Shown: piece after piece, positions 4,181 through 39,155 of the stretch
Layout of the letters: every line of letters begins with the position of its first letter
How positions within the stretch are numbered: position 1 is the stretch's first letter
NCBI GenBank assembly: GCA_001275005.1
Contig: JWZX01003310.1
Location: 1 to 58,578, forward strand
DNA from: Chrysochromulina tobinii
Taxonomy: Eukaryota > Haptophyta > Prymnesiales > Chrysochromulinaceae
DNA length: 58,578 bases
Direction of reading: 5' to 3'
Notes under the pieces: model-generated
What the model was told of the DNA's origin: nothing
Seen by the model: only the letters and a program-made list of their open reading frames with translations
The model's database searches: none
Made by a program: the position numbers and the translations under genes

Positions 4181-4334
4181 CCGCGCGCCCGAGCCGATCT
4201 CGGCGGCCAAGAATTCCGTGCGTCGCTCAGGGGCGCGTTGGCCTTTTCCTCGTTCCCGACATGTTTGGATCCTCAATCGTGTCTAAATCGGGCAACTTTA
4301 CTGAAATTCACAGCGCGAAATCAGGCCTCCATGT

Positions 4335-5657
4335 TCACGGCGCCGGCGTGCACGTGCACTTGCCGATGAAGCGCTGGGGCACAACAAAGGTGCAGGCCGG
4401 CGGAGGGGTGCCCTCGAGGACCGCCTTAACTGCGTGGTAGCCGAGGCAGGTGGCCTCGCCCGGCTGCGCTTGCGAGCTCGTCTCCACGTTGGTCGCCACC
4501 GCCAGCGCCGAGCCCGACGGGCCTAGGCCGTGGAAGAACGTGCTCTGGCTTTGGTAGCCGTACGTATCCCCCACGTGGCCGTATGCGGCGCCCGTGCCAT
4601 CAACGGCACCAATCGACCAGTCGAGGTCGAAGGTGCCCATGCCGTAAAAGTGGCCCGAGGAGGTACCGGGAGCGCTGAAGTTCCTCATTTGCTGCTGCGC
4701 CGCCGCGGACACGAGCTGTGAACCCGGTCTGTACAGCTCGTGGGTGAAGCGCGCCACGTCACCGACTGGACCGATAAAGTTGCCCGCGGTCCAGCCACCC
4801 ACGCACGAGACGTTCCACACGTCCTGGCTCGCGATCGGCGGCTGCACGCCCACATATGACTGGAGGAAGCCGTGCACCGGCGTGTACGCCGAGCAGCGGC
4901 CCGCATCCACAAACGTCGAGCCGACGAGCAGATCGCGCTTGAGGGACGCGGGTAGGACGGACGCTTTCTGATCGTAAGCTTGCCAACTGGCAGGGCCGCC
5001 CTCGGCCCAGGCCTGCGCTGCGAGGACCATCCCGAGCAGGATGTAGTTGGTCGAGCAGTAGTGCTGTGACGTGCCTGGCTTTGCATACGGCGAGAGGGGC
5101 GGCACGTATCCCCGCAGGATTTCAATCGGGGAGAAGTCGTGCGCAAAGTTGGCGAATTGGTCGACCGTGTACTTGGTCCCGTCGTAGTCGCCGATGCCAC
5201 TCGTCATGTGCAGCAGCTGGGCGATGGTCACCTTGCGAATTCCCTCGCCCAGAAGCGTTTCGAGCTTGGTGCCGTTGACGGCCTCCAGAAAGGCATCCAC
5301 GCGTGAAGTCACAGAGTCGGCGTACGCGAGCTTTCCAGCGTCGATGAGCTGAAGGATGGCTGCCGCCGTAAACATCTTGGTGATTGAGCCATACACGTAG
5401 ACATCTTCGGGCAGCGCAGCGCGCGTCGGTTTTCCTAGCCTCAGCCCTGCATCTGTGAAGCCGGCTGCGACGCTCACGTTGGCACTCGGAAGCCCGGACG
5501 CGCCCGGCAAAAAGTACGAAATCGCGATGGAGCAGTTGAACTTGGCGGCAACGTGGTCGGCGACCTGCTGCAATGCGGCGGCAATGCGTGCCTCCGGCGC
5601 TTGCGCTGTCGTGCCTGCAAGCAGGCTGGAAAGGAGGACGAGCGACGGACCCCGCAT
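4335..5657 (-). CDS. secreted beta-lactamase-related serine hydrolase
   Basis: 440 residues starting at the ATG at 5657. This start gives a clean signal peptide (MRGPSLVLLSSLLAGTTAQA), whereas the longer open frame upstream has no ATG at its head and no such signal. Family signatures of the class C beta-lactamase/peptidase S12 fold are visible. The catalytic SxxK is S91-I-T-K94 in VYGSITKMFTAAAI. A Tyr motif at 200 is followed by TNYILLG, and a C-terminal HVG box lies in AYGHVGDTYGY. The Tyr motif reads Y-C-S where the family usually has Y-x-N, so it is slightly atypical. Enzymes of this family hydrolyse amide or ester bonds in peptides, lactams or lipids; the substrate here cannot be predicted. 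Likely secreted or in the endomembrane lumen. Confidence 0.85.
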   Translation of the reverse strand: MRGPSLVLLSSLLAGTTAQAPEARIAAALQQVADHVAAKFNCSIAISYFLPGASGLPSANVSVAAGFTDAGLRLGKPTRAALPEDVYVYGSITKMFTAAAILQLIDAGKLAYADSVTSRVDAFLEAVNGTKLETLLGEGIRKVTIAQLLHMTSGIGDYDGTKYTVDQFANFAHDFSPIEILRGYVPPLSPYAKPGTSQHYCSTNYILLGMVLAAQAWAEGGPASWQAYDQKASVLPASLKRDLLVGSTFVDAGRCSAYTPVHGFLQSYVGVQPPIASQDVWNVSCVGGWTAGNFIGPVGDVARFTHELYRPGSQLVSAAAQQQMRNFSAPGTSSGHFYGMGTFDLDWSIGAVDGTGAAYGHVGDTYGYQSQSTFFHGLGPSGSALAVATNVETSSQAQPGEATCLGYHAVKAVLEGTPPPACTFVVPQRFIGKCTCTPAP

Positions 5658-5787
5658 TCCCGTCCGAGTTCGGCCCCTCCGGTCACAGTGATCCCTGTGA
5701 ACGTACTGTTGTCCACGGGCATCCCGTTTCCGATGGGCCATCTCTCCGTCTCTTCTAATCGGGTCTACACGTTCTGACCACATTCCT

Positions 5788-8778
5788 CTACGGCGGAACG
5801 TCTCTCTGCCCTGCGGCATCGCCCTCGTCCCCGATCCCCATCCCCTCCTCCTGGGCCTGCTCTAGATGGCTCGCCTCGACCTCGTCGTCGGTGCCGTCCG
5901 CCAGCGCATACAGCTTGCCCTGCGGCAGTGCGAGCCAGGCGAGCGTCATCTCCGGCGCCGTGGCGAGCACTTGCACCTCCGGCGCGCCGGCGGCGTCCGT
6001 GATGGCGCCCGCATCGCGGGCAGCGGCGGCGGCCGCCGCATTCGCCGTATCGTTCGCCGTCTCGAGCGCGAGAGACGCTCCGCGAGCATCGAGTTTCGCA
6101 CAGCGCGGGCGAGCGAGCAGCCCAGCTGCCCCGCCGCCGATGGCTGCGTAGAGGAGCAGCGGGAAGCTCAGCATGCAATGAGGGAGGCAATCAGCATGCA
6201 ATGAGGGTGGCAATCATGATCACCTGCGTAGAGGAGCAGCGGGACTTCCGGGTAGTCCACCTCGAAGCTCAGGTCGTGTGACGCACCTGTGGGGAAGGGC
6301 CCGGGCGCCGTGGTGAGCACTTGCATGCTGGGCGAGGAGGCGGGTAGTCCACTTCGAAGCTCAGGGCGTGTGACGCACCGATGGCGGCCTGGATGGTACC
6401 GGAGAGCATCCCGTCACCTGTGGGGAAGAGGAGATGGCGCCGTGGTGAGCACTTGCATGCTAGGAGGGCAGGAGGGCACGAGGGCTAGAGAGCATCCACT
6501 CACCGCCCTCGGCGTCGACTGCCACCCATGCCACGACGGCGCTCCGAGCTGCCGGAGCACCGAGCATGCTTGTGCTCGCCACGGCGCTCCGAGCTGCCGG
6601 CACTCCGAGGTGCCGCCGGACGCGCCGGCCGCGCACGCGCGCCTGCAGCTTCACTGCCGCGTCGGTCTGCTCCTGCTCCGCCTCCGCTGGCGCCGGGTCG
6701 ATGGATCCGCCGCTGTGAACGCCGCTGTGAACGCCGCTGCTGTGAACGCCGCTGCTCGATGGATCTGCCGCGGCCGCGCTCGAGTGCGTCGCGCCGGCGC
6801 CAGCTCGCCCACCCTTTGGTCCAGCGCCATCGGGCAGCAGAGAGAGCGAGAATCCGCCCGCGCTCGCCTGATGAGGGACGCAATCAGACGCCATCAGACG
6901 CCATCAGACGCCATCAGACGCAATCAAGGGCGCAATCAGACGCAATCAAGGGCTCTCGAGAATCCGGCCGCGCTCACCTCGGTGCACGTGGCGCGCAGCC
7001 CCGTGTCGCCACCCTGGAGTGTGAACAGCAGGCACGGGGTGCGCTCGAAGGCATCGGCTCCCTCCTCGTCCGTCTCGACGTACCTGTGGGGAAGAGAAGG
7101 CGCCGTGGTGAGCACTTGCATGCTGGGGAGGGCAGGAGGGAAGGCATCGGCTCCCTCCTCGTCCGTCTCGACGTACCTGTGGGGAAGAGAAGGCGCCGTG
7201 GTGAGCACTTGCATGCTGGGGAGGGCAGGAGGGAAGGCATCGGCTCCCTCCTCGTCCGTCTCGACGTACATGTCGAAGCGGGCCGCATGCGTATCGCCCT
7301 CGGCCAGAGCGGTCTCCCCGGCGATCAAGCGCGCGCCTGTGGGGAAGGGCCCGGGCGCCGTGGTGAGCACTTGCATGCTGGGCGTGGAGGCGGGGCGAGC
7401 GGTCTCCCCGGCGCCCAGGCACGCACCTGAGGAGGGAGATCATCAGAGGCAATCAGAGAGGTCATCCGGTCTCCCCGGCGCCCCGGCACGTACCGCCATC
7501 GAGCGTGTGCGCGCCGGCCTCCAGCACGAGGTATGCGATCGTCACGTCCATCCCCGCGGGAGGGACCAGCTGCAGCGTGAACGAGGTGCTGTTCTTAAAG
7601 GGCACGCACACGACGCTCGACACGGCGCCGCTGGCCCATCGAGCCTTCTCGACGCCCGACACGGCGCCCGAGCCCACCGAGCTGAAGCCAAGGGCCGCCG
7701 CGCCTCCGCGCGGCGCCGTGGGCGAGTGGGGCGAGGGCGAGGCGGAGCCGGGGCGCGTGGGCACGACGCATGCGAACACGACGGGCTCCCGGTACTGTAA
7801 CTGCAGGCTCACCTGATGAGTGAGGCAATCAGCATGCACTCAGAGGCAATCACGCAGGCTCACCTGCTTCATGCCGCGCGTCTGATGAGTGAGGCAATCA
7901 GCATGCACTCAGAGGCAAGCACGCAGGCTCACCTGCTTCATGCCGCGCCCAGGTACGTTGACGGTGCCGGCCTCGCCCACTCCCGCCATCGCCGACTCCT
8001 CGGCGCTCACGCTCGCCATGCCGGCGAGCGCCTCGAGACCGACGGCCGCCACGTTCCCGTCCTCGTCCAGCAGCGCCAGCTCATCGTCTGGCGCCTCGTC
8101 CGCCTCGTCCTCGTCCGCCTCGTCCTCGTCCTCGTACCCGGCGCGAGAGGCGGCGGCGGCGAAGTCCGCACCGCCGCCGCCGCCGCCCGTGCCGCCGCCG
8201 CCCGGGAGCAGCATGCCGTGGGCCCCAAAGAGCGCGCCCGCGCCCGTGCCGCCCATGGTCGGATCCGGCACGACCATGCTGCCCGCATCCACCGCGCCGC
8301 CGCCGCCGTCGTGCGTGAGGCCGAGGATGCCGGCGAGCCCTCCGCTGGCCGCTGCACGCGGCAGCGGCAGCGCGGCGGTCTTGGCCATGAGCTCCTCGAG
8401 CGCCGCCGACATTCGCTGGTTTTGCTCCTCCTGATGCCGCAGCGCGTTCGTGAGGATCATAGTCCGGTGCTCGAGCTGCGCGACACGCATGTCCAGCTGC
8501 TTGCAACGCTCCTCGCAGCGCTCGCAGTTTCGGCCTGGGTGACTTGCAGGTGGCGCGAGCCGTGCGGCCGCCGAGCTCTCGTACAGGGCCGCCACGCTCC
8601 GAATGTGCGGCGGCGCCGACAGGTTGCCGTACTTGTTGAGCAGCTGCACCTTTGCCTCGGGCGACAGGTACGAGCTGGTGCCCTCCTGGAGCGCGGGCAG
8701 CTGATGCGGCCGGCGGTACGAGGAGGTGCCGTCCTGGAAGCCGGGCGGCTGATGCGGACGCCGCTGCGATGGGTCCAT
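5788..8778 (-). CDS. coiled-coil / IQ-motif protein with lectin-like beta domain, 8 exons
   Basis: Exons (minus strand): 8778-7933, 7812-7494, 7336-7270, 7083-6978, 6867-6504, 6417-6379, 6286-6224, 6143-5788. The spliced length is 2,160 nt, an exact 719 codons plus stop, which supports the model. The N-terminus has repeated GTSSY segments, a Cys cluster (C85, C88, C92) and a coiled coil at about 88-133. Acidic and Gly-rich linkers follow. A beta-rich part contains PVVFACVV, FTLQLVPPAG and AYLVLEAGAHTLDGG, resembling repeat patterns in H-type-lectin-like domains (weak). An IQ motif lies at about 516-535 (AAVKLQARVRGRRVRRHL), a calmodulin-binding signature. A short hydrophobic stretch (VPLLLYAAIGGGAAGLLA) sits near 600. 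All seven introns belong to repeated families. Function unknown; a cytoskeletal or ciliary role is conceivable. Confidence 0.75.
6144..6223 (-). mobile_element. family B introner intron (80 nt), acceptor from duplicated exon
   Basis: Donor CTACGCAG|GTGATC; acceptor CTACGCAG|CCATC. A 20-bp exon segment ending CTCCTCTACGCAG is present at both ends, so the acceptor AG is a copy of the exon end. The insert carries GCATGCTGATTGCCTCCCTC. Confidence 0.8.
6287..6378 (-). mobile_element. family A introner intron (92 nt) with ~38-bp exon duplication
   Basis: Donor ATCG|GTGCGTCAC; acceptor CCTTCCCCACAG. The first ~38 nt of the intron repeat the start of the downstream exon with few mismatches. The remainder is the family A core (GCATGCAAGTGCTCACCAC). 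Confidence 0.85.
6418..6503 (-). mobile_element. family A introner intron (86 nt)
   Basis: Donor GGGCG|GTGAGTGG; acceptor CTTCCCCACAG|GTGACGG. The flanking duplication is about 17 bp and partly diverged. The core contains GCATGCAAGTGCTCACCAC followed by GGCGCC. Confidence 0.8.
6535..6600 (-). repeat. antisense family A core inside coding exon
   Basis: The plus strand reads GCATGCTTGTGCTCGCCAC (6564-6582), a diverged family A core that is antisense to this minus-strand gene. It is flanked by two 21-bp copies (6535-6555, 6580-6600) 45 nt apart. No splice sites are offered and the 45 nt are translated in frame as 15 residues. Confidence 0.65.
6868..6977 (-). mobile_element. family B introner intron (110 nt)
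   Basis: Donor ACCGAG|GTGAGCG; acceptor GTCCCTCATCAG|GCGAGCG. A 19-bp exon segment (GAGCGCGG, then CGGATTCTCG) is duplicated. The interior is a run of 10-nt units TGATTGCGTC/TGATGGCGTC. Confidence 0.85.
7084..7269 (-). mobile_element. two perfect tandem family A introners (2 x 93 nt)
   Basis: Units 7084-7176 and 7177-7269 are identical 93-mers. Each consists of 37 nt copied from the downstream exon (starting GTACGTCGAG) plus a 56-nt core ending TCTCTTCCCCACAG. No exon lies between them, so they are probably spliced out as one 186-nt intron from the first GT to the last AG. Confidence 0.85.
7337..7493 (-). mobile_element. composite family B + family A intron (157 nt)
   Basis: 7427-7493 is a family B unit (GTACGTGCC start, CTCCCTCCTCAG end). 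7337-7426 is a family A unit (GTGCGTGCC start, CTTCCCCACAG end). The ~27-nt exon-derived sequence ending GCCGGGGAGACCG occurs three times. This is consistent with a second insertion into the duplicated copy left by the first. Confidence 0.8.
7813..7932 (-). mobile_element. duplicated family B introner with possible 18-nt microexon
   Basis: Donor AAGCAG|GTGAGCCTG; acceptor CTCACTCATCAG|GTGAGCCTG. The unit is tandemly duplicated together with the exon end. This leaves an 18-nt in-frame segment (7864-7881, TRGMKQ) that has its own acceptor and donor. It may be skipped (120-nt intron) or included. Confidence 0.75.
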
Positions 8779-9001
8779 GAAACACTGGCGGTGTTGTGCT
8801 GCAGCCGCTACGGGGCGGCCACGGCTGTAGCGAGTTGTGGCATGCAGAGCGGTTGACGCTGGCCGTTTGCGCTATGCGCGTGTTAGGTGCTTCTACAATT
8901 AGAAACCCTGTCTCTGCGACGAACCGCGGGCAGTTCGAAGTTGCATGTGTTTCGTCAGGCTCTGTTTTCTACATCAATGTGTCATCACATCTCGTGTAAA
9001 G
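8779..9001. promoter_or_regulatory. divergent promoter region
   Basis: 223 bp between the start codons of the minus-strand coiled-coil/IQ gene and the plus-strand RING gene. Any promoter for both must lie here or in the 5' ends. No TATA-like element is obvious. Inferred from gene geometry only. Confidence 0.3.
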
Positions 9002-10312
9002 ATGAGCTCCCTGCGCTTCTTCGGCGCGACACATCCTCCGGGCAGCCCACCGCCGCCGGCGGACGACGATGAGGAGCTCGTGCCGCTCGCCGGCGGTGCC
9101 GCGGGCGCGGGCGGTGGTCCCAACGAAAACACCTCACGCATGCGCCGCTTCTCCATGGCACTCCAGCGAGGCGACGGGATGCGCGCCTTTGGCACGCTGC
9201 GCGAGCACGTGCGCGGGGCCGTCGCGGGCGACGCGCAGGCCCTGGCGGCTTCCCAGGAGGAGCTGGCCACGGCCGTGGCCGCCACCGCCTCGACGGGCGC
9301 CGCGGGAAACACGGCCGGCGCCGGCGCCGGCACCGCCAACGACCTGCCAACAGGCGACATCGCGGAGGTCGCGCGCTGGATGGAGGACGCGGCGCCCTCG
9401 CTGATGCTCCTCTTCGCCGTCTTCCTCTACCGGCACCTGCTCGGCATCATCACCTTCGGCTGGCTCACATCTGTGCTGCACGGCGCAAACGAACGCATGC
9501 GACGGCAGACGATGGGCAAAGAGCATCGGTCGCGTGCGGGTCTGCTCATGCTCTCGGGGCTGCTCTTCGCGCTGCTCTGCTTCGTGAGCGTCGTGCAGGC
9601 CTGGGACCGCGTCGCGCACCAGCCGAGCGCGCGCCTGCTCCACCAGCTTCAGCTGCGCCGCGTCGCCGACTTTGAAGCTGAGCCTCCGCCGATCGCCCAC
9701 CTGCTGTGGGATGTGGTGGTGGCGGATCTGGTGGCGCGCGCGGCGCTGCTGCTCGCCAAGGCGCAGCTCGCTCTCGTCTGCTTCTACGTGCTCCCGCACG
9801 GCGGCTCCGCGGGCGCCGGGCGCAGGCTGCGTCGCGTCTTCGCCTTCGTCGAGGCAGCGGGGCTTTGCTACCGTGTGCTGCTTCCCGCGCCTCTGTGGTT
9901 TCACTTCTTCTTCCACGCGGCCGAGAGCTACCCGACGGACGCATCGGTGTGGGCGTTCGGCGTGAGCCACTTCTACCTCGCCATCAAGCTCCTCTCGTTT
10001 TGCGAGCGGCTCAAGAAGGCAGTCGCCTCGGCGCAGGCCGCTGTGAGCCTCCGACTGCCCGTCGGGACGTACGCGACGCCCGAGGACATCATGGAGCTCG
10101 GCGACTCCGACGGGTGCACCATCTGCCAGGAGGAGCACTTCACAGTGCCCGTGCGCCTCGAGTGCTCGCACGTTTTCTGTGAAGATTGCATCACCTCATG
10201 GTGTGAACGCACGAGCAACCCAACGTGCCCGCTCTGCCGCGCGCCGGTGCCCGCTGCGCTCGCGCTCGCCCACTCGGACGGAAGCACGCCGCTGCTGCCC
10301 CAAGTCTTCTGA
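9002..10312 (+). CDS. RNFT1: RNFT-like transmembrane RING E3 ubiquitin ligase
   Basis: 436 residues from the ATG at 9002 (MSSLRFFGATHPPGS). The open frame extends 19 codons upstream without added conservation. A Pro/Asp-rich N-terminus is followed by several hydrophobic helices (LMLLFAVFLYRHLLGIITFG, LLFALLCFVSVVQAW, later ones near 230-330). The C-terminus is a C3HC4 RING at about 372-412 (CTICQ, CSHVFCEDC, CPLC). Multi-helix membrane part plus C-terminal RING, and the tail ending in QVF, match the RNFT1/RNFT2 family of ER-associated ubiquitin ligases. It would transfer ubiquitin to ER-membrane clients with an E2. No introns. It shares a short divergent intergenic region with the IQ gene. 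Confidence 0.85.
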   Translation: MSSLRFFGATHPPGSPPPPADDDEELVPLAGGAAGAGGGPNENTSRMRRFSMALQRGDGMRAFGTLREHVRGAVAGDAQALAASQEELATAVAATASTGAAGNTAGAGAGTANDLPTGDIAEVARWMEDAAPSLMLLFAVFLYRHLLGIITFGWLTSVLHGANERMRRQTMGKEHRSRAGLLMLSGLLFALLCFVSVVQAWDRVAHQPSARLLHQLQLRRVADFEAEPPPIAHLLWDVVVADLVARAALLLAKAQLALVCFYVLPHGGSAGAGRRLRRVFAFVEAAGLCYRVLLPAPLWFHFFFHAAESYPTDASVWAFGVSHFYLAIKLLSFCERLKKAVASAQAAVSLRLPVGTYATPEDIMELGDSDGCTICQEEHFTVPVRLECSHVFCEDCITSWCERTSNPTCPLCRAPVPAALALAHSDGSTPLLPQVF

Positions 10313-10789
10313 GTGGACTCCCTCGGCCAGACGGATCAGAAGTACAGTTACTAGCGCGAGTGTAGACGGGGTTTAAACAGGCTCTCAGACACTGTGCTCG
10401 ACGACACCATTTAATCTAGCGGCGACGACGCGGGCGCCGCGCGCGACGGCGCCTTCTACCGCCGACAGCGACATGCGCCGCCATCGCCGCATGCATCGCC
10501 GGCACATCATCGTACGCTCACCGGACCGTGGCCGGAGCGCAGGCCGGCGCGCGCCACGACAGGGCCAGTAGAGCCCTGGCTAGAACCAAGAGCGCGCATC
10601 GCGCGGCCGCGCGTGTCGCGCCCGGCCCCGGGAATTCCCATCCCACGGACACGCGCCGGCTAAAGAGCAGCCTGTTCAACCTCATATTGCACCTTGACTC
10701 CACTAGCGACTATCTTCGACTCAAGCCACGAGTGCGGCAAGGGTGGCATCTGAAATGCCGGTACTCTCAGCGCGGTGAATGCAAATCGC
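10313..10789. other. convergent intergenic region
   Basis: Lies between the 3' ends of the RING gene (plus) and the methyltransferase gene (minus). No gene or strong repeat seen; both 3' untranslated regions are presumably here. Confidence 0.5.
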
Positions 10790-11914
10790 CTAGATCCATG
10801 AGTGCGCGCGCACACCGCGCTGACGAAATTGGAGGAAGCTGGCGTACGAATCTGACAAGGTTCTCACCCCACTTGTACCCGCCGTAAACCAACTGTTTGC
10901 CCACCATTTGTCCATCCACGGGTTTCGCACATGATGTTCCCAGAAGAACTCATCGATGAATTCCAGATCGGCTGCTCCTTCAGGCGAAAGGAGGTGGTCG
11001 ACGATACCCTGCTCAGTTTCGATGTTGTCAATGTCCAACTTGAATAGGACATAGTCACCGGTGCGCGCAGTCCTACGAATGATGGTCGGGAGAAACGGAT
11101 GCGTCGTGTTGTCCTTGGCGACGGCTGCTTGGTGAAACCGTACGCGGCTGGCCCATGCGTCTGGTACTGTTTTGAGGAACCGTTTAGGGTCTGTGGTTGG
11201 CTCCCACGCCTCGACGAAATCAAAGTCAATGCCATGCCGCGCCCACAAGGTAGTGAAGAAATCGAGGGACGCGCCGCCCAACCCCACGTTCCAACTCGAT
11301 GCTCCGGCATCAAAGTAGTACGCGCGCTGTCCCAAAAGTAGGTTGGGGACTGGCACTATGTACGAGCGCTCATCGTTTCTGATTCTGGGATCGCCCGCTC
11401 GCTGGCAGCCGTTGAGTGGGTGCCGCAGGTGCGATACCAGTGGTTCGATGTACTCCACCGTGCGTTCCAACGTGCAGTCGTTGACAAACTCAAGCTGGGA
11501 GAATATGGCCGGGTTTCGGGGCATCAAAGGTAAAGGCTTTGGATCATGTTGTGCGAGGCCGGCAGGCCTTTTGTCGGTGAGTCGACCTGTTTGTTTGTTC
11601 AACCACATCGTTTGCACTGTGTCGTCAAGTGCACACCAGATTGGATCATCGTAGTGCACTGCGCAGGTCGAATTTAGGAAAGCGTGGATTTGTGCAGCCT
11701 GGGAATTGACCGCTGAGCAGAGAGAACCAAGCGACCCCTGCCACTCGCCTATGTTGTCAAGCCAAAGCTGTTCCCAAGGCGAAGAAGTATATCGCAGGAA
11801 GCGCTTCAGCTGGCAAGGACCTTTTGGGGTTGGTGCCGAATCGGCTCCTATGACCGTCCCAGAGGGCGGCCTCATGTAGCGTTGTGAGAGCTCCCTTGCT
11901 GTGTGCATATCCAT
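10790..11914 (-). CDS. FkbM-like SAM-dependent methyltransferase domain protein
   Basis: 374 residues from the ATG at 11914. The central and C-terminal parts have a Rossmann-methyltransferase rhythm. YYFDAGASSW at about 200 stands in the usual SAM-binding position. It is followed by FDFVEAWEPTTDPKRF (acidic end of strand 2 region), RVRFHQAAVAKD and DYVLFKLDIDNIE, a segment typical of FkbM-type domains. After that comes LEFIDEFFWEHHVRN. The family methylates sugars or other small acceptors; the acceptor here is unknown. No clear signal peptide or transmembrane helix, no introns. GC is slightly lower than in neighbouring genes. Confidence 0.6.
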   Translation of the reverse strand: MDMHTARELSQRYMRPPSGTVIGADSAPTPKGPCQLKRFLRYTSSPWEQLWLDNIGEWQGSLGSLCSAVNSQAAQIHAFLNSTCAVHYDDPIWCALDDTVQTMWLNKQTGRLTDKRPAGLAQHDPKPLPLMPRNPAIFSQLEFVNDCTLERTVEYIEPLVSHLRHPLNGCQRAGDPRIRNDERSYIVPVPNLLLGQRAYYFDAGASSWNVGLGGASLDFFTTLWARHGIDFDFVEAWEPTTDPKRFLKTVPDAWASRVRFHQAAVAKDNTTHPFLPTIIRRTARTGDYVLFKLDIDNIETEQGIVDHLLSPEGAADLEFIDEFFWEHHVRNPWMDKWWANSWFTAGTSGVRTLSDSYASFLQFRQRGVRAHSWI

Positions 11915-12323
11915 CTGCGAACTGGACTCTTAGCACCTGCCACAACCGCCGCACTCGCCTGGCACCACGCAAAGTGCTTGCCAAGGCCAGTATTTGATCG
12001 GTGCCGAGGGCGTGTGAGCGAGCACGCGCGAGCGGCGCATACACAGGTCGACTGATGATTGAATCCCTCATCAAGGGCTCCTAGGCCGAGCTCTCGCGGC
12101 AGGGCTCCCCGCACAGTGGGGGAAAAGTACCTTTGGATGAGTGTGAGAGCCCTCATGGCTGGATATTTGTGATCACACTGACGCGCTATCGACGTCCGAG
12201 TGCAAATAGTCCAAAGTGCAAAGAAGTCCAAAGACCCTGGAGCTCATCTGATACTGAACAAAGAACAAAGATCAAAGTACATCGTATGACAAAATACACC
12301 GCCCATGGCATTGCCTACCGCTT
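11915..12323. other. non-coding gap
   Basis: Between the methyltransferase start and the 3' end of the small membrane-protein gene. Overlapping short open frames on both strands show no recognisable protein features. Nothing further seen. Confidence 0.4.
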
Positions 12324-12692
12324 TCAACGTCGCGGCGACACGTCCTCCGTGGAAGCGGTTCGGAACCGTATCAAGGCGGGGCTGGGGTCGGCGTCGCTGC
12401 TCGCGTCCGTGTTATACATGATGGTGCTGGCGATCCCATAAGCGAAGAACGTGGCGACCCAAAACGCAGGCCGGTAGGTTGCCGGTAGCCTTCGCGATCC
12501 GAGGATGCCGGCGGGAAGTATTGCAAAAGGTGCGAAGGTGGCGACTCTTCGAGCGCCGTATGAATCCGAATCACCCAACACCGCCTTGCCTCTAGAGGCA
12601 AAGTGCGCCCGGTAGGCATGCGCTCCCACGACCGGTCGCTCGTCTTGTTCAGGCGATCGCGGCTTGCGCCATTCGTAGCGCGCCTCGGCCAT
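12324..12692 (-). CDS. small putative membrane protein
   Basis: 122 residues from the ATG at 12692 (MAEARYEWRKPRSPEQ). A hydrophilic N-terminus is followed by two hydrophobic stretches, FAPFAILPAGILG and FWVATFFAYGIASTIMY, then a polar tail. No family recognised. Size and hydropathy would fit a small organelle-membrane subunit, but this is inference. It is on the same strand as both neighbours and ends well clear of them. A shorter overlapping frame on the plus strand looks less protein-like. Confidence 0.45.
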   Translation of the reverse strand: MAEARYEWRKPRSPEQDERPVVGAHAYRAHFASRGKAVLGDSDSYGARRVATFAPFAILPAGILGSRRLPATYRPAFWVATFFAYGIASTIMYNTDASSDADPSPALIRFRTASTEDVSPRR

Positions 12693-12821
12693 GACGTTCG
12701 GCCGGGCCTCTACCTCGGTTGACGTTTCCCGCCGAAGGGACGTGTGAAGTCACTTTCGACCTGTGTCTCCAAATATAAAAAGAAGTCTCCACACCTCTGA
12801 ACGTGAGAATGATGACTATGC

Positions 12822-15800
12822 CTAAGGCTTCTTCTGCCCTTCGAGCAAGAAGAGGGCGACGCCACGCCAGTAGCAGAAGGCGGGGTGCTCGTACTGAGCG
12901 ACTCCGAGCGTCGGGTTGTAGTACATCGGAGCTTGCGCGCCCGCCACGGCGCCCGACGGCTCAGCAGGCGCCTCCAGCCACCCGAGGGGCAGCCCCGAGC
13001 ACACGGCCGCCGACGCTAGCCACAGAAGCTGAGGGTGCGTGCGCAAGGGCACGCCAAGATACACAGAGGCCGCGTGGAGCTCGTGCAACGAGATTGGGCG
13101 GATGCCGAGGGCGGCTATACGCGCCTCGAGGCTCGCCGTGCACAGGCGCGCCGCGGCGGCGTCGGGTGGCTCGCCCGATGCACGCAGAGCCTCGAGCGTC
13201 TCGAGAGTGAGCGCCTTGGCCGACGGCTCCTGCTGGAAGGGTGGCATGATCTCGCTGCTGATGAAGGGGCAATCAGGCAGCGCCTCCTCCAGACTGGTCG
13301 TGCGCTGTCCGCTCACCATGTTGATGAAGGGGCAATCAGGCAGCGCCTCCTCCAGACTGGTCGTGTGCAGGCCGCTCACCATGTCGACGAGCCACGTGCC
13401 GCCGAGAGAGCCGCCCTGGCGAGTACTAGAGCCTTGTACCAGTGGGGAAGTGCCGGCGCGTGCCGCCTCTGTGATCGGTTCCGCTGCCGTTGGGGATGAC
13501 GCGTCGGCGCGTTGGCCGGTAGGGCTACCGGCACGACGCTCGAGCGCGGCGCCGTTCTGGGCGGCGCCGTTCTGGGCGGTGGCGGGGGCAGAGCCGTCCG
13601 CGAACCCTTCCGCCTCGGGCGGCGGCGCAAACTCCATCCAGCGCAGGTGGAGCAGCTTCGCGTTCGGAGGCTCTTCATGGAACTTTCGTGGTACTCGCTG
13701 GTATGCCCGGAGCAGAGGATGCACCGCGCTTATGGCGCCGCTGAGCGTGTTCTGATAGCCCTGTGGACTTTGCTTCCAGGGTGGCGGTAGCGGCGCCGCC
13801 GCAAAGGCGACTGCGCACCAGAGCTTGGGCACATCCGTCGGCATCGAGGGCTTCAGAGAGTACCTATGAGGGGAAGAGAGGGCGTCGTGGTGAGCACTTG
13901 CATGCTGAGGAGGGCAGGAGGGCTTGAGAGCGTACCCGAGGGCCTCGGCTGCCCGGCGCACGTGCGCCGGCTGCAGGGGTAGCTGTATGGCAGCGGGCGC
14001 CAGGCATAAGAGGGCGCGCAGCTCGCCAAGGTGCCCCTTGAGTGGACGCGAGCTCTGGAGGAGAGGCGTTGCGATCGTCCCCTGCGCCGGATGTGCCCAC
14101 GGCGACGCTTGCTCTCGGGTCAGCGCCGTGGTGGGCACTTGCATGCTGGCCCGCGGGGGCGACGCTTGCTCTCGGGTCAGCGCCGTGGTGGGCACTTGCA
14201 TGCTGGCCCGCGGGGGCGACGCTTGCTCTCGGGCCAGCGCTGCCGCGGCGGCCGTTGCCGCCTCCACGGCCTCCGCCTCCACTTGCTTCGCAGCGAGCGA
14301 GATGGCGAGCGCGAGAGCGCGTCGTTGCATCCGAGCCTTGCGACACACCTGTGGGGACGTGAGGGCGCCGTGGTGAGCACTTGCATGCGGGGCGAGAGCG
14401 CGTCGTTGCATCCGAGCCTTGCGACACACCTCGACGTAGACTGAGCGTCGCCAGCACACGGGCGGCGGCGGCGGCGGCGGCGGCGGATGCGTGCGCGCCG
14501 TCGTGGGCAGCGCGAGCTCGGCCATCGAGATTGAGCCCGCCAGCCGATGGCACAGGCGCCGCGCCTGCTTAGCCATGGTCGCCGCCGGGCGCAGCGCCGC
14601 TCGCTCCGCGACCACCGAGGCCAACTCTGCATGCAAACGGGGAGGCAATAGGGAGGCAATTAGGGAGGCAATTAGGGAGGCAATTAGGGAGGCAATTAGG
14701 GAGGCAATTAGGGAGGCAATTAGGGAGGCAATTAGAGTGGCACTCACCTGCATGCAAATGGGTCTGCAGCTCGTCGAGGGCGTGTGGCTTGTACTCGAGC
14801 ACGCCGGCGCGCTTGCGCCGGACGCACTCCATGAATGTATGGGTGCCTCGTACCTATGTGGGGAAGAGCGGGCCCCGTGGTTAGCATTTGCATGCAGAAA
14901 CGCACTCCATGAATGTATGAGTGCCTCGTACAGGTGGGTTTAGCCCTGCGCAATTAGAGGGGCAATTAGAGGCAATTAGAGGCAATTAGAGGCAATTACC
15001 GGTGGGTTGAGCCCTGCGCAGTAGAAGCAGATCTGGCTGAGCGTTGTGGTGAGCGCTCCTCCCTCGGCCTCCGCTGGCTGGCTGCTCACGGCACGCGTCG
15101 CCTCGTTGGCAGCACCAGTAATGGCGTCGGACCCCTTGGGGACGCCTCCCCCCTTGGGGTCGCCTCCCCCGCTGGTGACGCCTCCGCTATTGGGGACGCG
15201 CCCCGTTTTCACAAGTGCATCCGCTTCGGCCTCGAGGCGAGCCAGCGTCTTCTCGGCGTCCGACGTGTTCAGCCTGAGTTTCTTTGCATCCTTGATGGTC
15301 TTCTTGAGCACGTCAATGTCAAGATCACCAGCTGCAGCAGCCGCAGCCGCAGCCGCAGCCGCACTGGACTTTGCCGCGCTCGCCCGGGCCTTTGCCGCGC
15401 GCGCCGCCGACGAGTGCGACCCCATCCGAAAGTTCCACTCGCGGTCCACGCAGAGCTCCGGCCGGTTGGGTACCTGTGGGGAGGGGTGAGGGCGCCGTGG
15501 TGAGCGCTTGCATGCCGACGAGCAGCACCCCATTTGGACGCAGGGCTCCGGCCGGTTGGGTACCGGTATTTCGTCCCACTTGGAGAGCTCGTCGCTCTGC
15601 TCGATGACGTGGCACACGGCCAGCGCCGCCCGCCGCGCCTCGAGCAGCCCAGCACGGCGCTGCTTGAGCTCCGATGATCTCCGAAGGGTTTCGTCCACCG
15701 CGTCCATCTGCTCCTCGAAGAGCCGTTGCGCCGCCGTCGGCTCGTCTTTTGACGAAGCCCGCCGTGCCACGCGCTCGACGCCGGCGCCCACGAGCACGCC

Positions 15801-18800
15801 ACCGGCGCCGCCTTGGGCACCATCCAGCGCGCCGCCTCCGGAGCCGCCGAGCTCGTAGCTGGCTTCGTCAGCCGCCTCCTCGCCGGCGCTCGGGCGCTCG
15901 TCACGGCGCGCATGCAGCCACTCGATGGCGCCACGCGTATAGAACCATCGCTGGGTGGATCCACGAAGCGCGAGGCGTTCCACGTCGAGGGCGGCAAGGG
16001 CGGCTGTGGCTTCTCGTGCCTCGGTGCGCGCGTCTTCGAGTGTGCCCTGGAGGGTAAGGGTAAGGGTAAGGGTAAGGGTTTGGTTTAGGGTTAGCGTCCT
16101 CGAGTGTGCTCTGGAGCGTAGGCGACGCTTCGATGGCGGCGCGTGAGAGGTCATCACTAATCATCACAAGCACTCCAATGATACTCGGAGCTCATCGTTG
16201 GCAATCAAGGGCTAATCAAGGGTGAGCGTGGGAGGTCATCACTCATCGTACCTGGAGCGTTGGCACTTCGGCCGCGACGGCGAGGTGGGCGGGACGGACG
16301 GAGATCACCTCGAGATTGAGCTTCGCGACCCCGAGCTCGCGCGAGGTTGTGGCAAGAGCCTGCATAGCCATGAGCACGGCGGTCATCAGAGCTACCCAGA
16401 GGGGCAATGAAGGTCATCACTAGCAATCAAGGTCATCACTAGCAATCAAGGTGATCACTATCAATCAAGGTCATCACTATCAATCAAGGTCATCACCTCC
16501 GGCTCGAAAGAGTTTGTCTTCCCCACCTCGCCGGTCATCAGACGCATCAGCTCGTTCACCGCCTCCACGGCCGCCTCCGCCGGCGGCTCCACGCTCTCAT
16601 CAGTGCTGGACGCGACGCTGCCGAACCCTCTGTGCTTGGTCGCTCCCGGAGAGTGCACGGGCGAATGGACTGGTGACGTGGCCCTCAAGGTCGGTGACGT
16701 GGCCCTCAAGGTCGGTGACGTGGCCCTCAAGGTTGGTGACGTGGCCCTCGAGAGGAGGGCTGTGGGGAGAATCTGCACCGTGAGCAGATATCGATCTCGG
16801 GCGGGCTGCTTCACCTGTGGGGACGTGAGGGCGCCGTGGTGAGCACTTGCATGCGGGGCGAGAGCAGATATCGATCTCGGGCGGGCTGCTTCACCTCGGC
16901 GATGCGCAGCCAATCATATGCAATCAGACGCAATCAGACGCAATCAAGGGCGGGCTGCTTCACCTCGGCGATGCGCAGCGTCACAAGGTGAGCATCCGCA
17001 TGCCACCAGCCGAGAAGGTCAGCCACGCACACATGGCCGACGCTGTCGTCAAAGGCACGCGTGATGGCCTCGCTTTGACGTCGCCCGGATGCCGCGAGCA
17101 GCAAGCTTGCCTCGGCCTCGACACGCCTCACCAGAACCCGGGATGGCAGGCCCGCGGCATAGGCCACACAGCGGCGCAGAAAGTCCTCGCGCTCCGTCAG
17201 GGCGCGCAGCCGGGCGCGCTCGCCTGATGAGGGACGCAATCAGACGCAATCAGACGCAATCAGACGCAATCAGACGCAATCAGACGCAATCAGACGCAAT
17301 CAAGGGAGCTTACGGCACACGAGCGCCGCCCGGAGGGCCGCCTGCCGTTGCATGCGCAATCTCGAGAGCTCGAGATCGAGATCTCGCCGCCGGAGCTCAG
17401 TGAGCAGCCGCAGCGCGCCGAGCGACTGGCCGGCGCGCTCGAGGGCGTCGTGCTGAGCGCCGTCGGACGCGCCGTCCGCCTCGTCGGCGCTCGGGACGGC
17501 GCCGTCCGCCTGCAGCTCGGCCAGGCGCGCGCGCGTCTGGGCCGCGCGCTCGTCCAGCGCCGTGCTGAGCGCCGCGCCGCGCGCCGTTCTGGGCACATCG
17601 AGTTCGAGCAGCTCGGCGAGGAGCTTGTGGCGTGCGCGCTCCATCTGTGGGGAAGGGGGGGGGCGCCGTGGTGAGCACGTGCATGCAGGGCGGGGGCGTC
17701 CAAGCAGCTTGCGGCGCCGTGGTGAGCGCGCGCGCCGCTCCACACCTGGTTGCTCTCCTCCGCGGTCGAGAGGGCCGCCGCGTCGGCCAGCCTTGCCACC
17801 GCCTCGGCCTCGACCGCACGCAACCGAGCCCGGAGCGCTGGAATGATTCCCCACAGGGCCTCGACCGCCGGAAAGCGAGCCGCGAGCGTCGACGCGCACT
17901 CGGCGATGCCGCGCAGCTCGGCGGCGTGGGCGATCAAGGTGTGGGCGGCCGCATGGGCTGCGTCGAGCTTCGAGGCGAATAGCATCGAGGTGGACAGGGC
18001 GGAGGTGGCGGCGGAGAGGCCGGGAGATCGCACCTCGTGGCTGAGCATCTTCGCCTCGATCTCGGCTCGGAGATCGCGGAGCTCGCGAAAGATCTCGTCG
18101 TGCGGCGCCGAGATGGGCGCCGAGTTAGGCGCCGAGTTGGGCGCCGCTATGGCCTCGGTCCTCTCGGCGAGCGTCGTCCTGAGCGCCTCGCACAGCTGGA
18201 GCCGCGCCCCGAGCGAGCTCAGCTCGAGATCGCGCTTTTGACGAACCTTGCGCGCTGCACTGATCTGCCTGCCGAGGGCCGCCGCTGCCGCCCCGGGTGG
18301 GGGCACCGCTCGCCCGTCGACGAAGACGGTGGCGCCCGAGCGCGCGCCCGCCGCCGCCGTCGCCGATCGGATGACCGTCCCCTTCCATGCGCCGCTCCGC
18401 TGGCCCTTGGGAGTGGCGTGACGGGAGTCGCCGAGGGAGCTACGGTGGGCCGTTGGGCTGCCGCTACGGTGGGCCGTTGGGCTGACGAAACGGTCAGCTG
18501 ATGGGCTACCGGGATGGCTGCTCGATGCGCCGCCCGCGCCTCCGTCGGGGTCGGCGCTTCCCCCGTCGGGCGCTCGGCGCGGCGCGAGCCCGATCGATGC
18601 ATGCACGCTCTCAAGCTGGTGACTCGCCACTTCCCACAGAAGCTCCCGCAACGCCGCCCAACCCATCCGCTGCCGCTCCGCCGCGCGCAGCTCGAGCCAC
18701 GGGCCCGTTGTCCCACCTGATGATGCATGCACTCATGATGAGCGAGGCAATCATGATGAGGGAGGCACTCAGGATGAGGGAGGCAATCATGACGAGGGAG

Positions 18801-21800
18801 GCAATCATGACGAGGGAGGCAATGATGATGAGGGAGGCCATCGGGTGCTCGAGCACAAGCCCATCGTCCCAGCTGATGATGGAGGCAATCACGATGAGCG
18901 AGGCAATCAGGTCGTCCCACCGAGCACACGTGCAAGGAGCGCCTCCTTGGCCGCCGACACGGCGCGGTACGCGCGGTACGCGCGGGCGATCGTGAACACG
19001 GCGAGCGCCTCATGGCTGAAGACATTCTTGGCCTTGGCGATCGTCTGCTCTTTGAAGGCGCGGCGTGCCGCCTTGCGCTCCTCGGCCTTCTTGCGCGCCG
19101 TACGCCGGCGCACGACGGCTTGCATTGTGAGGCACGCTTTCCGGCGTAGGTACGCTTGACGCTGGTAGCGAGGTGATCGGAAGAGGGACTGGAGCTTGCG
19201 CACGTACCTGTGGGGAAAAGATGGCGCCGTGGTGAGCACTTGCATGCTGGGGACTGGAGCTTGCGCACGTACATCGTCATGCGCAGCCGTCGGATGATCT
19301 CTTCATACGTCGCCTTCTTGGCGACGCCGGTGCGGTCTCGGCGGCGTGGTTTGGGGCGCGGGGGGTAGCGATCTGGGTGCGCGGCGAGGACCCGACGCCA
19401 CCAACGCTGAAGGATGCCCGCGGCGACGCCACGGCCGAAGCTGTCAGGCTCGGGCCGGCTAGCGCGGGGTCGGCAGACGGCGCGCAACGCGCGTGTCTGG
19501 ACTGTCCGCGCGGCAGCGTCGCGCTCGAACCAGCGCGCAAGCCGATCTCGCGCCGCCAGATACCGACCTGTGGGGAAGAGGTGGTGGGGCGCCGTTGTGA
19601 GCGTGCGCATGCAAGGCGTCGTTGTGGGCGTGTGCATGCAAGGCGTGGCTGACCAGCGCCGCCATAGAGGAGAAGCTCGGCCTCGAGGTAGAGTGTTGAG
19701 TCCAATTCGAATCCCGGGGCGCGCTCCGATAACGGCACCTGATGAGGGGTGAAATCAGGTGCACTCAGGTGCAATCAGGAACAATCATATGCAATAAGGT
19801 GCACTCAGGTGCACTTAATCAGGTGCCCTCAATATGCACTCAAGATGCACTCAAGATGCACTCAGTATGCACTCAAGGACGGCACTCAAGATGCACTCAA
19901 GGACGGCACCTCCCTCGGCCCCTTGGCGAGCGCCGTGATGAGCGCGGCGCTCGCCGCGTGCAGGCTGGCGGGAGTGGGGCGGAGCTCGTTGATCAGGGCC
20001 GTTGACGCCGCCCCAAGACGCATCGCCTCGATCAGAGAGTGGACGCACTTGTCGGTGTACGGCGGCAGCTCGTCGAGCGACACGGGCGAGAAGCGGCGAG
20101 AGGAGTTGTCACTGCCGCTGCCGCTGCCGCTGCCGGTGGCGGCGCTCCTCCTTCTTGATCGGCTCGAGGTGGCGCGTGCGGCGGCGGCGCTCCGGACAGC
20201 CACGCCTGTGCCCTCCACCAACGCCTCCTCCTCCTCCTCCTCGTCCTCGTCCGCGTCCTCGTCCTCGTCGTCGTCCGCCTCGTCGATGGTCGGCTGATCG
20301 GACGCCCACAGCGGGCGCAGCTGCTTCGGCTGCGTCCAGGCAAGCACCATCGGGTCCACATCGAGAGGCAACGGGAGCCATGGACGCGTCTTCGTGAGCG
20401 CCTCGAGCGCCGCGCGCCCCTCTGTCAGCGCCGCGCCTCGCGCGTCCGCGGCGACCCGCTGAACGCGAGCACTTGCATGCATGCGCACGGCGACGCGCAA
20501 CGCGTACACGCTCGCCTCGGTGCTCGCTTTTCGCTGCTCCGTGACGGCTTCCACCACCGCGGCCGCGGCGAGCCGAAGTTGACGAATCCTATCGCCGAAC
20601 TCGCACACGTGCCCCGCACGCACCGAGGCGCCCAGCCAGGCGGTGTGAGCGGAGGCGACGCCTCTGCTCACGTATGGAGTCGTCCGGTCGCCGATGGCGC
20701 GCCGCGCGCGTGCAATCGAGCCGAGGCGGGCACGCAGCTGCTCGAGCTGCGCGCTGTGAACAGCGAGGGCGTCCGCCGTGCGCTTCCGGTGTGAATCGAG
20801 ATTCGTCAAGAGGTCTTCGTACGCGAGATCGTTTCTGACGAGATCGGCGAGCTCCTTTTCGGGCTCGTCCCTCATGGCGGCGGCTAGCAGCCGGCCGCTG
20901 CGTGCAAAGCTCGAGAGCACGTCGCTCTCGGCCTCGCCGTACCTAATTAGGGAGAGAGAGGGGGGCGCCGTGGTGAGCACATGCATGCAAGGCAGGTCAT
21001 CAGTCGCTCTCAACGCCTCGCCGTACCAGGCGTCTGGAACGGACGAGGTGCCACTCCCTAATTTGGAAGAACCAGACATGCCTAATTTGGTTCGCGACAT
21101 GGCCGCCGAACCGCTGACGCCGCCGCTGCCAGCGTCAGGGTTCGCTGGCGGCCGTCGGCCACTTGGCTGAGACGACGGGCGGCGGGACGCCGGGCGGTGC
21201 GGCACCGACGAGGAAGCGCCAGAGAGCGTCAAATGCCAGTCGTCGATGCCGCCGCCGCCACCGCCGCCGACGTCCTCGATGCCGCCGCATCCGGCGTCGA
21301 GTGCCGAGAAGGGCCTGGAATGGGCGGAGCGACGTGTCAAGCGCATCGCAAGCTCGCGGGAGGACCGCCTCGCATTGCCGTCGAGGGACGGCAACCAACT
21401 CGAGTACACCTTCGCAGCGCGCCCAGTGTTGTAGCTCGGGATCACCGACGAGATGCCCCCATTCCGCCTCTCGGAGATTGCCATCTCATCCCGCCTCTCG
21501 GAGATTGCCATCTCATCCCGCCTCTCGGAGATTGCCATCTCGGAGCGCGCGGAGCCTCGGCCCGCGGACGGTCGAGGCGCCGTGCTGCCGCCGCGCCAGC
21601 CGGAGCCGGCGGCGCCAAACATGCCCTCCCCAGACAGTCGATCGAGGGCGATCAGGAGCGCCGGCGCGGGGCTCGGGGGCATGAGAGGCGGAGCGCCCGA
21701 GCTGGCGAGCTCGAGGGCGAGCCGAGCCGAGCCAGCGAACGGGGAGCCGGCGAGGACGGAGCTCGAGATGCAATCTCGAACGGCGAGGACGGAGCTCTGA

Positions 21801-36573: not shown

Positions 36574-39155
<2,582 letters not shown>

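Follow-up and report, generated by a model that had tools for sequence, protein, structure and literature searches.

The window analyzed here, a stretch of 58,578 nucleotides (nt) of the haptophyte Chrysochromulina tobinii (contig JWZX01003310.1), contains a family of short introner-like inserts built on a conserved 24-nt core, GCATGCAAGTGCTCACCACGGCGC, of which hundreds of copies occur in the genome. At most isolated copies, the core lies between two copies of one host sequence, 14-49 nt long, and in the copies read as introns this duplication forms the 5' part of the intron and supplies its donor site. As the origin of these inserts, a staggered break filled in around a captured short piece of DNA is ranked first, with about an even chance of being the correct account, mainly because some telomeric repeats carry similar duplications. 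To our knowledge, telomeric repeats are not carried by transposases.

An earlier note on the same DNA had described about 17 intronic copies sharing a motif, and the family is real: the pattern GCATGCAAGTGCTCACCAC has 16 matches in the window at up to three mismatches, against 0.05 expected, and the first 19 nt of the core have 720 exact matches in the 53,154,812-base C. tobinii genome, against none for the reversed pattern. The 24-nt core variant with T at position 8 has a further 135 exact genome matches. The genome count is slightly inflated, as some contigs are redundant and a few copies were counted twice; the redundant contigs of loci L015 and L024 are 99.8% identical, and no intron difference of the core family was seen between them. 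The core of about 43-56 nt first described proved too long, as column identity over 126 copies is 83-100% inside the 24 nt and at most 73% outside, with conservation limited to the core and, in most copies, a variable tail of pyrimidines and CACAG; the left extension is ragged. The window and the fetched loci (numbered with L) together hold 227 distinct core copies, 150 isolated and 77 in tandem, where tandem means a second core within 130 nt on the same strand, and such copies are excluded from all isolated counts. Most loci were picked for holding the core, and the counts leave out L001-L008, which overlap other loci, copies less than 125 nt from a locus end and copies with identical 60-nt flanks. 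A core-blind sample of eight 4-kb stretches (32 kb) held no full core copy and a single truncated one (L073), which lacks the first seven bases of the core.

An Rfam search of the window at the gathering threshold gave no match, and a search of the C. tobinii genome for a second copy of window positions 5500-21500 matched repeats alone. Scans of sequence collections with the core pattern matched one viral-collection contig (L117) and no genome-collection contig, and the B/A pattern, a longer form described below, had no match among the viral-collection contigs. On L117, a 4.5-kb contig whose name holds 3300027760, positions 4206-4554 form an alga-like end with the core and CCACCACAG, adjoining phage- or bacterium-like open frames, perhaps as an assembly chimera. 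Additionally, minisatellites built on the words CTCACCACGGCGC or CCCACGACGGCGC occur in apparent coding frames (L009 7330-7402, L010 9070-9473, L056 651-801), and such coding minisatellites may be the source of the right half of the core.

Duplications were measured by aligning the left with the right flank of every core copy. A direct repeat scoring at least 28 was found in 110 of the 150 isolated copies, with an aligned length of 14-49 nt (median 30), against 7 of 750 pairs in a mixed-flank control that joined left and right flanks of different copies. The same score was reached at 158 of 1500 positions drawn at random from the window and 28 loci, a rate attributed to other inserts, which are numerous, and to coding minisatellites. 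All 16 window copies have a direct repeat across the core at a score of at least 24; in the window introns the duplication is 17-38 nt (53 for one member of a tandem pair when the spacer common to both is included), close to the 17-39 bp first reported, and the genome-wide range is wider. Terminal inverted repeats were absent, with none of 84 inserts scoring 7 or more and a mean (3.20) equal to that of shuffled ends, and an inverted-repeat transposon is rejected on these grounds.

Counted from the donor, the duplication has a median of 29 nt (5-95% range 17-39; 84 isolated introns), and in the same introns the left spacer between duplication and core is ragged, with a median of 6 nt. The two lengths are negatively correlated (Spearman -0.57, p = 2e-8), and the distance from donor to core is held at 24-50 nt. 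The long duplications in introns are read as partly survivorship, the spacing between donor and branch site having to come from the duplication. Some copies that have a left part of their own carry shorter duplications (L061, 14 nt; L053, 16; L046, 17), but L030 has one of 27 nt. Copies without an acceptor also have long duplications, of 14-41 nt when composite tandems and introns missed by the rule are left out, and the length is therefore not merely an effect of splicing.

Introns with the donor inside the duplication were called by rule in 107 of the 227 copies, 85 of them isolated; the rule also admitted doubtful copies, which were kept (L025 2363, L046, L083, L097, L101 and L103). In the 85 isolated introns, which measure 62-93 nt (median 78), the 5' part repeats the downstream exon and supplies the GT donor and the spacing, as the earlier note had proposed along with a portable cassette of branch site and acceptor. 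All 85 contain the presumed branch A of CTCAC, at a median of 25 nt from the AG, and the exon copy is still identical in 25. Across the 107, GT donors number 94 and GC donors 13 (the rule shut out other dinucleotides), and the final six bases are CCACAG in 90. A bias in intron length modulo 3 (33, 26 and 5 among 64 isolated introns) was discarded, as it was not replicated in 22 new copies (8, 8 and 6).

The core-bearing segments are predicted to be spliced from RNA, judging from the DNA and its translations. In a gene fragment for ClpB, joining the GT of the duplication to CACAG gives a reading that aligns without gaps through the junction to a solved ClpB structure (E = 4.8e-85), and the unspliced locus has its frame broken by stops. 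The ClpB relatives in the protein database included no transcript of this species among the best 120 of 5306, all at 79% identity or less, and for the genes compared with that database no copy clearly derived from a transcript emerged. Ten spliced segments, hand-picked as conserved-looking proteins, were compared with Pfam, and in eight the match crosses the junction (DSPc, JmjC, SNF2, ion channel, CRAL_TRIO, gelsolin, PP2C and EF-hand); of the other two, ClpB has Pfam matches flanking the junction and one segment has no family.

An apparent case of a site without one intron came from comparison with database proteins. The L014 gene, which we take to be VPS13-like, has three core-family introns within about 600 nt. 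P0137, a metagenome protein from a 1203-base Joint Genome Institute (JGI) contig, agrees with it at 178 of 180 aligned residues once a single stretch of 26 residues is set aside. At the second junction P0137 has the duplicated residues only once and shows no intron, and its sequence continues through the third intron and the core within it. In another protein, P0138, the reading extends into the second intron. That P0137 still contains the third intron suggests genomic DNA as its source, although it may instead come from a partly spliced transcript or cDNA. At this single locus, with that reservation, intron and duplication are absent together, in agreement with the earlier claim that they arise together, and they may be polymorphic between strains. 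Similarly, ClpB homologs are uninterrupted at another intron site, and bacterial ClpB has neither the core nor the second exon copy.

Not all copies are introns. Of 30 copies in which the rule found no acceptor, 22 have a unit length that is a multiple of three, where one third would be expected (p = 9e-6); by locus, the count is 12 of 20 (p = 0.013). Any copy that has an acceptor or whose left part is of the TGATTG type is excluded from this set, which still includes about five presumed introns, three that are not multiples of three (L013, L023, L105) and two that are (L014, L056). In L021, a minus-strand frame of 1044 codons stays open across cores of the plus strand and one core of the minus strand, each of them in frame; the opposite strand has an open frame of 594 codons, and both core orientations occur whichever strand codes. 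In-frame cores in both orientations within one frame indicate that insertion acts on DNA and is not tied to splicing, and they rule out reverse splicing of intron RNA into mRNA as the sole route. Splicing is only one way for an insert to survive, and in-frame units are another.

Other sequences also lie between direct repeats. The telomere was taken as TTAGGG, arrays of which stand at some contig ends. At 32731-32824 (+) in the window, the 14-nt interstitial telomeric insert GGGTTAGGGTTAGG (32771-32784) lies between two 40-nt host copies, forming a 54-nt unit; it is the sole strict telomeric match in the window and the loci scanned (the scan left out L001-L008, L117, L024 and L078). A degenerate telomere-like insert picked by eye (16051-16094) lies between two 20-nt host copies at 16031-16114 (+). 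Among five fetched interstitial telomeric sites, L118 (25 nt) and L121 (31 nt) have clear duplications, L120 has a 46-nt repeat but other sequence between its copies, L119 has none and L122 is of low complexity and uninformative; in the mixed-flank control for these sites, 19 of 20 pairs scored 10-17 and one scored 46. L121, with the reading TTAG|GTGAGCG, may represent a small intron formed of telomeric repeats.

Furthermore, arrays of CTGATTGCC or CTGATGACC, here family B, lie between direct repeats (score at least 18) at six places in the window and at 37 places in the 20 core-rich loci L009-L028, a few being double-counted in L015 and L024. The same 20 loci hold 43 further repeat pairs with neither core nor B, and four simple adjacent duplications. 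By eye, family B also appears to form introns, in the window at 14640-14750, 16905-16950 and 17220-17310 and at other places. A hybrid B/A form, GTACGTTGATTGCCACTGATGACCTGCCTT joined to the core, is read as having its donor in the insert and its acceptor in the duplication (L053, L061).

In the mechanism proposed here, the strands would be cut about 14-49 nt apart and both ends filled in, and a short piece (the core, a B array or a telomeric repeat) captured between the filled ends would be left with the host stretch on both sides. Where the piece is sense to the gene and the duplication starts with GT or GC, splicing to CACAG would remove the insert together with one exon copy and restore the message; the remaining copies would persist where the unit is a multiple of three. 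The preference of the earlier note for a staggered break or template switching over cut-and-paste transposition fits the 14-49 nt repeats, the lack of inverted repeats and the telomeric duplications. Its reading has to be amended in that the copies are not all intronic, the cores occur in both orientations and the long duplication is partly survivorship.

Several observations weigh against fill-in of a staggered break. A single core is present in hundreds of copies where random filler would be diverse; simple break filler is insufficient here, and something must spread this sequence in particular. Either abundant genic copies are reused as templates, or the core is recognized by something. Additionally, 40 of the 150 isolated copies have no repeat at the score threshold, which about 1 in 10 random sites also reaches. 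Microhomology at the junctions is thin, with 7 nt at the right junction in two isolated core-only copies and a small excess at the left junction; other counts from the right-junction comparison were not used, as tandem arrays inflate them and repeat extension elsewhere sets them to zero. The telomeric sample is small, with L119 lacking a duplication and one control pair scoring 46. Interstitial telomeric repeats of primates and rodents entered at double-strand-break repair, in some cases along with microhomology and a duplicated target (Nergadze et al. 2007; PMC2246262), and, in the accessible text of that study, a minority of loci have the target duplicated (6 of 130 in rodents and 4 of 25 in primates). 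Unlike those loci, several of the few telomeric sites here have a duplication, and a similar footprint surrounds the intron-making inserts.

Target-primed reverse transcription offers another route, in which an enzyme of the long interspersed nuclear element (LINE) type would act in trans on intron or other short RNAs, with staggered nicks, and early stops would leave ragged left ends. The genome has 26 matches to the reverse-transcriptase family RVT_1, most within long open frames, and the target duplications vary in length, as in retroposons of the LINE or short interspersed nuclear element (SINE) type. In 25 of the 110 isolated copies, at least 3 nt at the left edge agree with the end of GTACGTTGATTGCCACTGATGACCTGCCTT, and in seven at least 14 nt do so, which can be read as a truncation series; the L073 copy lacking the start of the core also suits this route. 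However, no poly-A or simple-repeat tail was seen by eye. A CACAG right end occurs where splicing selects for that sequence, but several core-only copies stop at or near the core, with no fixed 3' end. Moreover, B and B/A copies are read as anchored on the opposite side, and telomeric inserts with duplication need no LINE. These inserts and the variable right end count against this route as the only cause, and it is considered unlikely, if still a serious candidate.

A hypothetical DNA transposase or integrase that recognizes and inserts the 24-nt core, cutting the target with a stagger longer and more variable than usual, would account for a single core in hundreds of copies, as well as for bare-core inserts at several loci and for both orientations. 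It is judged slightly less probable than the LINE route, since the ends of the 84 inserts carry no inverted repeats, the repeat length ranges over 14-49 nt and some telomeric and B inserts have similar duplications without the core. Local tandem duplication, in which slippage or unequal exchange would double the sequence around a core word already in place without inserting new DNA, is very improbable: CACCACGGCGC and related words are common in coding minisatellites and 77 of the 227 copies stand in tandem, but neither the core nor the second exon copy is present in P0137 or bacterial ClpB, and the flanks of different isolated copies are unrelated in the mixed-flank control.

No introner duplications this long were found in the literature searched, most subscription papers lying outside that search. 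Introners of Micromonas and Aureococcus were reportedly treated by Huff et al. in 2016. As far as the accessible portions of the cited papers go, mass intron gains are mostly ascribed to transposons (PMC9860276), and duplications of 3-9 bp are given for some earlier characterized introner families, short ones being typical of DNA-transposon introners, if not of all (Gozashti et al. 2022; PMC9860276); the examples include 4 bp in Symbiodinium and in Chrysochromulina and 8 bp in Aureococcus. As in introners, many near-identical sequences here form introns at new sites, and, as in those of Symbiodinium, the element carries the 3' splice site and the target duplication provides the 5' splice site; introner families without inverted repeats are also known (PMC9860276), as in the core inserts. 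Unlike the introners of that study, the duplication here spans 14-49 nt and forms the 5' half of the intron. Amoebophrya introner elements are likewise repeated introns bordered by direct repeats, with 3-5 nt direct and 8-20 nt inverted repeats (PMC7789003), whereas inverted-repeat ends are absent here. The present family is placed as a variant apart from transposon-type introners because it has neither the short duplications nor the inverted-repeat ends of such introners.

New introns of Daphnia pulex also have a copy of the adjacent exon at their other end, ascribed to staggered-break repair, and a mean length of 77.7 bp (PMC4202315), against the median of 78 nt here; unlike here, their repeats are 4-12 bp, and no single shared core is described in the accessible part of that paper. 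In a 2025 survey, repeats around introns average 11.4 bp and range over 4-30 (PMC11782384, in its accessible text). Templated sequence insertion polymorphisms are similar in that short pieces with a template elsewhere enter at breaks (class 2) or are placed by LINE-1 with a target duplication (class 1); unlike here, intron-making or a single repeated core is not mentioned in what is accessible of the report (PMC5110952). By its sequence, the family would seem to work like an introner and to look like an extreme Daphnia scar with a repeated core.

In the window, 13 of the 16 copies are read as introns, 11 by the rule and two by hand (cores ending at 6460 and 17686), and three as in-frame inserts; the description of about 17 intronic copies at 6287-21026 thus stands for these 13, with one more lying outside that range. 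All 13 are on the minus strand. The first is the 92-nt intron at 6287-6378 (core 6305-6328), whose 38-nt exon copy (6341-6378) corresponds to the exon at 6249-6286 with a duplication score of 68. It is followed by the 86-nt intron at 6418-6503, with borders set by hand (core 6437-6460; diverged 17-nt duplication, score 24). A tandem pair of 93-nt introns lies at 7084-7176 (core 7100-7123; 37-nt exon copy at 7140-7176) and 7177-7269 (core 7193-7216), and a 90-nt intron with a diverged 30-nt exon copy at 7337-7426 (core 7355-7378). Next are the introns at 13864-13935 (72 nt; core 13882-13905; 18-nt exon copy), 14349-14429 (81 nt; core 14365-14388; exact 38-nt exon copy at 14392-14429) and 14854-14931 (78 nt; core 14872-14895, branch word CTAAC; 32-nt exon copy). 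The 90-nt intron at 15474-15563 (core 15492-15515) has a 26-nt exon copy and, by eye, a more diverged copied stretch, and the 80-nt intron at 16815-16894 (core 16831-16854) has an exon copy of about 33-36 nt. At 17645-17745, a probable intron of about 101 nt with borders set by hand (core 17663-17686) has a partial core nested in its diverged exon copy. The last two are those at 19208-19272 (65 nt; core 19224-19247; exact 23-nt exon copy at 19250-19272) and 20943-21026 (84 nt; core 20965-20988; 24-nt exon copy), the latter with TGATGACCTGCCTT, which is part of the longer B/A form, as its left spacer.

The core-only copy at 6564-6587 (+) is not an intron and forms a 45-nt unit with a diverged 21-nt duplication; both strands are open here, and the core would be antisense to the gene if this lies on the minus strand, as the neighboring introns suggest. 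The other two in-frame copies, a tandem pair at 14123-14203 (-) with cores at 14123-14146 and 14180-14203, are read as non-intronic 57-nt in-frame units within an open frame of 705 codons. The additional copy is a diverged 75-nt intron at 38871-38945 (+; coordinates converted by hand), with five mismatches in the core (38906-38929) and a 32-nt exon copy. The window also has an intronless open frame of 455 codons at 8945-10312 (+), with relatives that carry RING-type Pfam domains; its best match is 99% identical and represents a cluster of 52 members, and the organism may be widespread.

More tentatively, and with less confidence than is given to break fill-in at single sites, it is proposed that repair of breaks with a long stagger has produced introns en masse, the core spreading because a captured branch site makes the scar spliceable, with no transposase involved. 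If true, this would be a self-spreading sequence below the size of any mobile element known to us. The origin of introns is an old open question, and the scar left in C. tobinii is long enough to be read at single sites. Its likeness to some telomeric patches, together with the copies that are still identical, makes intron gain by break repair testable in one genome.

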